From Rothia sp. (in: high G+C Gram-positive bacteria) (lineage in GTDB: Bacteria > Actinomycetota > Actinomycetes > Actinomycetales > Micrococcaceae), in assembly GCA_030524105.1 (NCBI GenBank), contig JAUNHE010000002.1:124001-188000 (forward strand): a DNA stretch of 64,000 nt. The letters run 5' to 3'. Made by a program: the position numbers and the translations under genes. Position 1 is the first letter of the stretch; the number at the start of each line of letters is the position of its first letter. Shown here in pieces: positions 62,668 through 63,254 of this stretch. Below the pieces are notes generated by a model. The model did no database searches. It was not told the origin of the DNA and was given only the letters and a program-made list of their open reading frames with translations.

Positions 62668-62871
62668 TTATTGGCTAGTTTTCACCTGATAATACCCGTA
62701 TGAACTCATGAAACCAGCAAAAATCGGCAGAATCCAGGTAGTAGGCTCTAGGAAATTTTCAATTTGCATTCCTGGCATCCCTGTTATTGCAAAAAGTAAT
62801 CGAATAGATATTAACCCCCATAAGAAACAAAGAGATAACCTAAGGAAAGAAGGGGAGGGGCGCTCTTTCAT
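62668..62871 (-). CDS. Small two-helix membrane protein (possible immunity protein)
   Basis: A 67-residue protein (ATG at 62871) with helices at residues about 11-31 and 44-60 and basic ends. It begins three bases after the stop of the Gly/Ala/Trp-rich peptide gene upstream (TAAGCTATG), so the two are translationally coupled. Size, topology and position fit a bacteriocin immunity protein. Inferred from context only. Confidence 0.5.
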   Translation of the reverse strand: MKERPSPSFLRLSLCFLWGLISIRLLFAITGMPGMQIENFLEPTTWILPIFAGFMSSYGYYQVKTSQ

Positions 62872-62874
62872 AGC

Positions 62875-63147
62875 TTACAGAGCTCCCCTGCAACCTACAG
62901 CCGCTGCCGCAAAAGCAACTGCTAGCCCCCAGGGGCCACCTAAAGATTTAAGTAGCATAGGACCCACAAAACGGTCTACAGTCCTAACTGCCAAACCCCA
63001 ATTCCAAGCTGTGATGGCAGCTTTCGCTGCGCTAACCAAACCGGGTGCCCCCGCCAGGGCATTCCACCCGTTTGCATTCCCAAGAACGCAAGTGGTAAAT
63101 TCCCAGGCTCCCTGAGGTTCAACAGCTAGCTTCCCTAATGTTGACAT
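62875..63147 (-). CDS. Gly/Ala/Trp-rich peptide (candidate bacteriocin)
   Basis: A 90-residue protein: GNANGWNALAGAPGLVSAAKAAI, AWNWGLAVRTVDRFVGPM, and SLGGPWGLAVAFAAAAVGCRGAL, with four Trp, two Cys and few charges. It resembles hydrophobic class II bacteriocins in composition, but I find no family. AGGA lies ten bases before the ATG. It overlaps the signal-peptide frame just upstream by 13 bases in another frame. Two readings: a leader ORF followed by this gene, or one secreted precursor broken by a frameshift. Confidence 0.5.
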   Translation of the reverse strand: MSTLGKLAVEPQGAWEFTTCVLGNANGWNALAGAPGLVSAAKAAITAWNWGLAVRTVDRFVGPMLLKSLGGPWGLAVAFAAAAVGCRGAL

Positions 63148-63254
63148 CTCAGTGACTGTCCTGAATAGGCACTAGACGGAGCTGTTCCAGCAAATATGGG
63201 AAGTGAAGTTGTGAGACAGAGGGTAGCAGCGATTCCTCGAGTGCGTAGGTTCAT
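63135..63254 (-). CDS. Short signal-peptide ORF upstream of the Gly/Ala/Trp peptide
   Basis: A 39-residue frame with a strong AGGAGG seven bases before the ATG. It reads MNLRTRGIAATLCLTTSLP then IFAGTAPSSAYSGQ and stops at LRCQH. Basic start, hydrophobic core and an SSA cleavage site make a Sec signal peptide. It ends inside the start of the peptide gene. A one-base change would fuse signal and peptide into a precursor of about 125 residues, the likely original gene. Confidence 0.6.
   Translation of the reverse strand: MNLRTRGIAATLCLTTSLPIFAGTAPSSAYSGQSLRCQH

Follow-up and report, generated by a model that had tools for sequence, protein, structure and literature searches.

A probable decayed EntV-like bacteriocin cassette with an open putative immunity gene in Rothia sp.

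EntV of Enterococcus faecalis (EF1097, also enterococcin V583 or enterocin O16; family model EntV_fam, NF058576; crystal structure 7roa) resembles the family considered here in joining a signal peptide, a helical prodomain and a two-cysteine helical mature domain that ends in a hydrophobic helix. Swe et al. are said to have described, in 2007, a 'modular' bacteriocin family that includes corynicin JK; this actinobacterial member of the same 'modular' family (ypkK, Corynebacterium jeikeium) is likened to the present locus by description, not by sequence. In pneumococcus, immunity-only bacteriocin loci ('cheaters') keep immunity and lose the killing gene. They differ from the case presented below in bacteriocin class and host, the losses here being internal deletions of two-gene cassettes.

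EntV has a 136-residue pro-form that GelE cleaves at Leu103, and its activity requires a C106-C167 disulfide (PMC6606811). Three N-terminal and three C-terminal helices clasp the hydrophobic last helix, and killing is non-lytic (PMC9562342). The main text of PMC6606811 mentions no immunity protein, and in PMC9562342 'immunity' occurs in a reference only. Among the matches listed, titles and abstract openings of the bacteriocin literature on EntV homologs, Rothia, R. nasimurium and Glutamicibacter arilaitensis describe no EntV-like gene in Rothia or Glutamicibacter, which is weak evidence of absence.

The locus examined here lies near the end of the window, the 64,000-nucleotide stretch of Rothia sp. 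DNA that was analysed. It is very probably a decayed EntV-like bacteriocin cassette, probably plasmid-derived, in which the toxin is disabled and a 67-residue membrane protein is intact and probably still protective. The frames are given below beside their counterparts in G034, a second genome of the genus, in G098, a fragmented genome (82% complete) from another genus of the taxonomic family, and in R. nasimurium irhom_31.

62668 to 62871, minus strand: intact 67-residue small membrane protein, putative immunity protein, placed after the toxin as in G034 (70 residues) and G098 (73 residues)
62875 to 63147, minus strand: 90-residue frame, remnant 3' end of the toxin gene, with the end of the prodomain and a hydrophobic mature domain that has two cysteines (Cys20, Cys86); the signal is in another frame
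63135 to 63254, minus strand: 39-residue frame, remnant 5' end of the toxin gene, with start codon and Sec-type signal peptide; AGGAGG just upstream; start and first codons the same as in R. nasimurium irhom_31; signal-prodomain-mature order known from G034 and Glutamicibacter
62708 to 63115, plus strand: competing 135-residue frame on the opposite strand

The AGGAGG stands 5 bases ahead of the ATG at 63254 (minus strand), the 90-residue frame overlaps the 39-residue frame by 13 bases in a different frame with an ATG inside the overlap, and 3 bases separate the 90-residue stop from the 67-residue frame. The first-pass annotation had described this arrangement in the same terms; 'signal peptide' and 'two-helix' are hydropathy terms throughout. 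By that measure the 39-residue frame has a single hydrophobic stretch (residues 7-23), and the mature domain carries a cysteine near either end and a hydrophobic, Gly/Ala-rich final stretch. A consensus scan of 62500-63500 returns no promoter-like or terminator-like sites. None of the 39-, 90- and 67-residue proteins has a Pfam match at E<=1, and the 90-residue protein alone finds nothing above chance level in NCBIfam, EntV_fam included. A Darobactin match to it (E 0.13, 10 residues) was put down to chance. Single-sequence AlphaFold2 modelling of the 90-residue protein gives a pLDDT of 56.5 and four Foldseek matches (best PDB E 4.8), hence no fold support.

At E<=1, the 90-residue protein is matched in 11 of the 35 genomes of the genus, the window's own counted; besides that one, two matches are clear and the remaining eight have E 0.0098 or worse. 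G034 is 46% identical to the block over residues 6-87 (E 8.6e-19 in this 35-genome search), and R. nasimurium irhom_31 (G016) matches the last 24 residues only (92%, E 2.7e-8). In G034 the signal, the prodomain and the start of the mature domain share one frame, a stop falls within the mature domain and homology runs on beyond it; the membrane gene comes next. G098 has the same mature domain, separated from its prodomain by a frameshift and followed by its own membrane gene. The 90-residue frame can be taken, to judge from these matches, as conserved beyond chance. The first-pass annotation had raised the question of whether homologues carry the block fused to the signal peptide; they do, in G034 as far as the stop and in Glutamicibacter over the whole gene.

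Searched against 395 genomes of the taxonomic family, the G034 protein matches 12 at E<=0.01. Ten of these loci, G034 and the window's own left aside, were checked for frames of at least 100 residues and include three intact 186-residue Glutamicibacter proteins, a 235-residue relative in G016 and the broken G098 copy. Another match, G270, is a phospholipase-type protein, and the loci of G012, G053, G243 and G359 hold no such secreted protein and look like chance. A profile built only from window, G098 and G034 rows (A4) matches six of the 395 genomes: the window's own, G034, G098 (E 3.7e-27, with that G098 row part of the profile), G016 (the 235-residue gene, E 2.1e-7), G240 (the Glutamicibacter gene, E 1.2e-5, model positions 8-193) and G193 (E 0.0066). 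It recovers one of three near-identical Glutamicibacter genes, that of G240, and the other two are absent. With Glutamicibacter added to the window, G098 and G034 pieces (profile A2), one of 396 phylum genomes matches at E<=0.001, the window's own. Plasmids gave no match to the window DNA, the window 90-residue protein or the G034 protein. Among viral contigs, 14 pattern stretches yielded one confirmed hit (L042), a long phage-type protein with one short matching stretch, taken as chance. No intact copy of the closer type (window, irhom_31, G034, G098) was found.

Intact relatives are found further away. In three Glutamicibacter genomes (G083, G223, G240; L020-L022) a single frame of 186 residues encodes the signal, the prodomain and the mature domain of an intact homologue. 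This protein shares 34-35% identity with the window block and is annotated 'hypothetical protein' (NC_014548.1 = L062/L020; L021, L022). The protein after it has 124 residues, not 67, and four hydrophobic stretches by hydropathy. The G223 gene is intact on an 8.5 kb mobilizable plasmid (L062/L020; NC_014548.1); tblastn of its protein against plasmids returns two records, both mobilizable Glutamicibacter plasmids (8.5 and 6.6 kb), each covering 84% of the query under the label 'hypothetical protein', with a 96.8% match on the 6.6 kb plasmid. The contig that carries the G083 copy exceeds 279 kb and so is no small plasmid. A second EntV-family match in G223 (L041, contig C3; E 6.8e-7) has one internal stop and is perhaps another decayed copy. 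On a different contig from its broken copy (C93; L025 1375-2079), R. nasimurium irhom_31 has an intact 235-residue EntV-like protein with leader, prodomain and mature domain in one frame; the gene next to it encodes a 132-residue protein that looks membrane-bound by eye.

The link to EntV passes through Glutamicibacter. The Glutamicibacter protein scores 65.6 bits against the EntV-family model (E 5.2e-18) and the 235-residue G016 protein 24.6 bits (E 2.1e-5), both under the 130-bit cut-off, so that even an intact relative falls short of the curated family. The model itself matches three of the 395 genomes at E<=0.01 and none above cut-off. Profile A2 reaches 7roa (E 2.1e-4) as the sole credible solved structure, with both cysteines aligned; EntV_fam and 7roa are both missed by the window protein on its own, and A4 has no 7roa match. 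When mature domains alone are compared, the window type and Glutamicibacter align over 40 columns (hhalign E 1.2e-4) with none of 60 column shuffles as good, against 10 of 60 shuffles for the window type and EntV. The cysteines of the mature part lie at C106 and C167 of 170 residues in EntV, C119 and C180 of 186 in Glutamicibacter, and C20 and C86 of 90 in the window. Cys20 and Cys86 align with Glutamicibacter and, through A2, with 7roa; the cysteine layout is thus of EntV type, and the disulfide is a predicted one.

What the window lacks, compared with EntV, is the single signal-prodomain-mature frame: the prodomain is absent and the two remaining frames are apart. Nor does the gene have the marks of a leaderless bacteriocin, since its homologues carry a signal and a prodomain and the window keeps a signal remnant. 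At the level of sequence, the chain from window to Glutamicibacter to EntV defines the family neighbourhood of the window protein. It is a distant one, with Glutamicibacter as the bridge, because direct comparisons of the window protein, A4 and the mature domain with EntV fail. The statement that the peptide matches no known family therefore holds for the window protein by itself and not along this chain. The locus is best read as a modular bacteriocin of a known kind in decay, in a branch outside the reach of the curated family model.

The extent of the loss can be read from the distance between the start codon and the first cysteine of the mature domain, which is about 55 codons in the window, 119 in Glutamicibacter and 133 in G034. 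By this measure some 64-78 codons have dropped out of the window gene after the signal, the prodomain with them, and what remains on either side is read in different frames. At the same locus, R. nasimurium irhom_31 (L002) has a larger deletion: start, tail and membrane gene are the same, 287 further bases are missing inside the gene, a 30-residue frame is left and the membrane-gene frame is shifted near its start. All four copies of this type (window, irhom_31, G034, G098) are broken, each differently, and the membrane gene is open in three of them. Between window and irhom_31 the toxin tail shows 2 synonymous changes and 1 amino-acid change (P 0.20), too few to judge. The term 'acidic prodomain' was dropped, with D+E 9 and K+R 7 in 77 residues of G034 and 10 and 8 in 66 of Glutamicibacter.

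The first 6 codons of the 67-residue frame fall where the irhom_31 gene is shifted; over the other 61, the two copies differ by 5 synonymous changes and a single amino-acid replacement (one-sided Fisher test, P 0.0023). Changes so largely synonymous mean that the frame has been under constraint, in the past if not now. Identity of the window membrane protein is 27% to G034 (E 0.06) and 21% to G098. By hydropathy it departs from the initial 'two-helix' description in having one clear hydrophobic stretch (residues 14-30) and a second that stays below threshold; the G034 and G098 proteins have two stretches each. The proposed bacteriocin/immunity layout was right in kind: as in G034, a gene of secreted-bacteriocin type stands ahead of one for a small membrane protein, the activity and the immunity both being putative.

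What the sequence shows is that the locus is homologous to those of G034, G098 and Glutamicibacter, that the toxin gene has lost its middle and its continuous frame, and that the 67-residue protein was under constraint in the past. Killing activity, processing, a disulfide, immunity and plasmid origin are inferred. The ancestral gene would have encoded a Sec-secreted pre-pro-protein made up of a signal peptide, an inactivating prodomain and a two-cysteine helical mature domain. By analogy with EntV, the prodomain would have shielded the toxic part until cleavage, when an extracellular protease would free the mature domain and a disulfide close it. With the prodomain lost and the signal and mature frames apart, no such secreted toxin would be made. 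The 67-residue protein probably still guards the cell against the lost toxin or against its relatives in neighbours.

The cassette has company on both sides.

62107 to 62382, plus strand: frame that includes a stretch of the C-terminal segment of a plasmid-type Rep/primase (PriCT_1 match below cut-off, E 0.011); two further copies of the repeat follow
62300 to 62650, minus strand: DDE transposase fragment (HTH_Tnp_4), just downstream of the 67-residue gene
63721 to 63957, plus strand: second Rep/primase C-terminal fragment (PriCT_1, E 2e-11), between this cassette and the next, hollowed one
63994 to 64000, minus strand: last bases (stop end) of the 92-residue membrane gene of the second, hollowed cassette, which continues past the window (63994-64272; L057 2995-3273)

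Three 100-base direct repeats lie beside the cassettes, at 62154-62253, 63825-63924 and L057 6212-6311 (window coordinate = L057 + 60999). The first two, which the Pfam scan covered, sit in the frames matching PriCT_1; the second and third Rep copies are 86% and 88% identical in DNA to the first. Past the window, the second cassette consists of a 149-base toxin remnant (64306-64454) and the open 92-residue membrane gene. An intact version some 3.5 kb further on encodes a 172-residue secreted-type protein (67857-68375; L057 6858-7376, minus strand) with its own membrane gene, and the C-terminal part of this pre-pro-protein has cysteines close to both ends, one at each. The remnant is without 370 bases of the 519-base gene, its start and tail spared. 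Another 98 bases are missing upstream of the remnant start (repeat spacing 3921 versus 4019), so its promoter may be affected. Over 83 codons, the membrane genes of the hollowed and the intact copy are separated by 18 synonymous changes and 14 that alter the amino acid (P 5.8e-5).

The 172-residue protein has no Pfam or NCBIfam match above chance and occurs in one of the 35 genus genomes, the window's own; with its membrane neighbour it is likely an uncharacterised bacteriocin pair. Homology to the EntV-like domain found no support: the hhalign alignment was confined to the signal and prodomain part (E 0.007, 5.5% probability). The frame at 66057-66392, possibly a third toxin remnant, opens with a signal-like sequence and includes 34 residues that are 38% identical to the window mature domain (single-pair E 4e-6). 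Given the three Rep C-terminal fragments beside the cassettes and the plasmid-borne copy of G223, a plasmid origin of the island is likely.

The region holds further genes of note. A secreted phospholipase A2-like protein with a long N-terminal extension (61363-61986, plus strand; PF00068 E 2.4e-7, just below cut-off) is matched in 7 of 35 genus genomes, the window's own counted, and has a second copy with an internal stop about 16 kb downstream. A prodomain common to this protein and the EntV-like genes, suggested by a resemblance to the eye, was rejected (hhalign E 0.34; score 9.8 against a best of 12.0 in 100 column shuffles). Among the minus-strand genes at 52652-60575 are those for an ABC transporter ATPase and a Rce1-like CAAX protease; others, judged by eye, encode membrane proteins and two proteins that resemble transporters, and one encodes 429 residues that have no Pfam match. 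Together they are possibly a cluster of peptide-antibiotic type. On the other side, L057 8075-10270 (plus strand) encodes a 731-residue protein with an Abhydrolase_8 match (E 3.9e-18); the proteins after it look, by eye, like lipoproteins and membrane proteins, and the group may be an operon for secreted effectors.

The first-pass annotation saw a split precursor that a one-base shift near 63135-63160 would mend; the split exists, and such a shift would leave the prodomain codons missing. Because those codons are missing and signal and mature domain no longer share a frame, the split is to be read, from sequence, as decay and not as a one-base slip or a new gene arrangement. A live locus, in which translational coupling yields a leaderless peptide from the 90-residue frame or a programmed frameshift joins that frame to the signal, would find a place for the 13-base overlap with its internal ATG and for the similar break between prodomain and mature domain in G098. 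It is nevertheless very unlikely: by eye the overlap has no X-XXY-YYZ slippery site and the internal ATG no ribosome site ahead of it, a joined product would still be without the prodomain, leader, prodomain and mature domain share one frame in G034 (to its stop), the three Glutamicibacter copies and the 235-residue G016 protein, and irhom_31 has lost most of the gene. Still more improbable is an assembly or sequencing error in a strain with a working gene. There is one assembly of the strain to go by, and the breaks in G034 and in the incomplete G098 might be errors too, but a base error cannot take out some 64-78 codons. This gene also carries a deletion in the independent assembly of irhom_31, and the window's genome has a second cassette hollowed in like manner.

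If the block belonged to another two-cysteine bacteriocin family and had reached the same layout by convergence, the failure of direct EntV comparisons would be expected, and the 172-residue protein shows that this genome does hold a two-cysteine pre-pro-protein without a family match; yet A4 extends to one Glutamicibacter gene, that of G240, and EntV_fam in turn recognises the Glutamicibacter protein (E 5e-18), which makes convergence quite unlikely. Somewhat less remote, though still doubtful, is that the 67-residue protein has nothing to do with immunity and is another factor or a functionless passenger. It has no family match, weak cross-species similarity and a single clear hydrophobic stretch, and the irhom_31 gene is shifted near its start. 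Against this, the membrane gene keeps the same place and a similar size in window, G034 and G098, and its differences from irhom_31 are mostly synonymous.

The best reading of the region remains a bacteriocin island, probably plasmid-derived, whose killing genes have been lost and whose putative immunity genes stay. A more tentative suggestion, which we would not hold as probable, is that Rothia keeps a bank of 'hollowed' cassettes: internal deletions would cut out the prodomain along with some or most of the mature toxin, whereas start, tail and membrane gene would be spared, leaving the immunity gene expressed. These would have arisen side by side in one genome, in two toxin families of no demonstrated kinship, and been selected as immunity without killing against the mobile EntV-like bacteriocins of neighbours. 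Constraint on the membrane genes fits this suggestion but could predate toxin loss, and both the broken membrane gene of irhom_31 and the possible promoter loss in the second cassette speak against it.

The locus offers a concrete case in which killing genes are gutted and putative immunity genes are left open. It also points to an EntV-like bacteriocin branch in Micrococcaceae that is intact in Glutamicibacter, where it is annotated as a hypothetical protein. Because EntV is under study as a lead against fungi and bacteria, distant intact relatives of it are useful.
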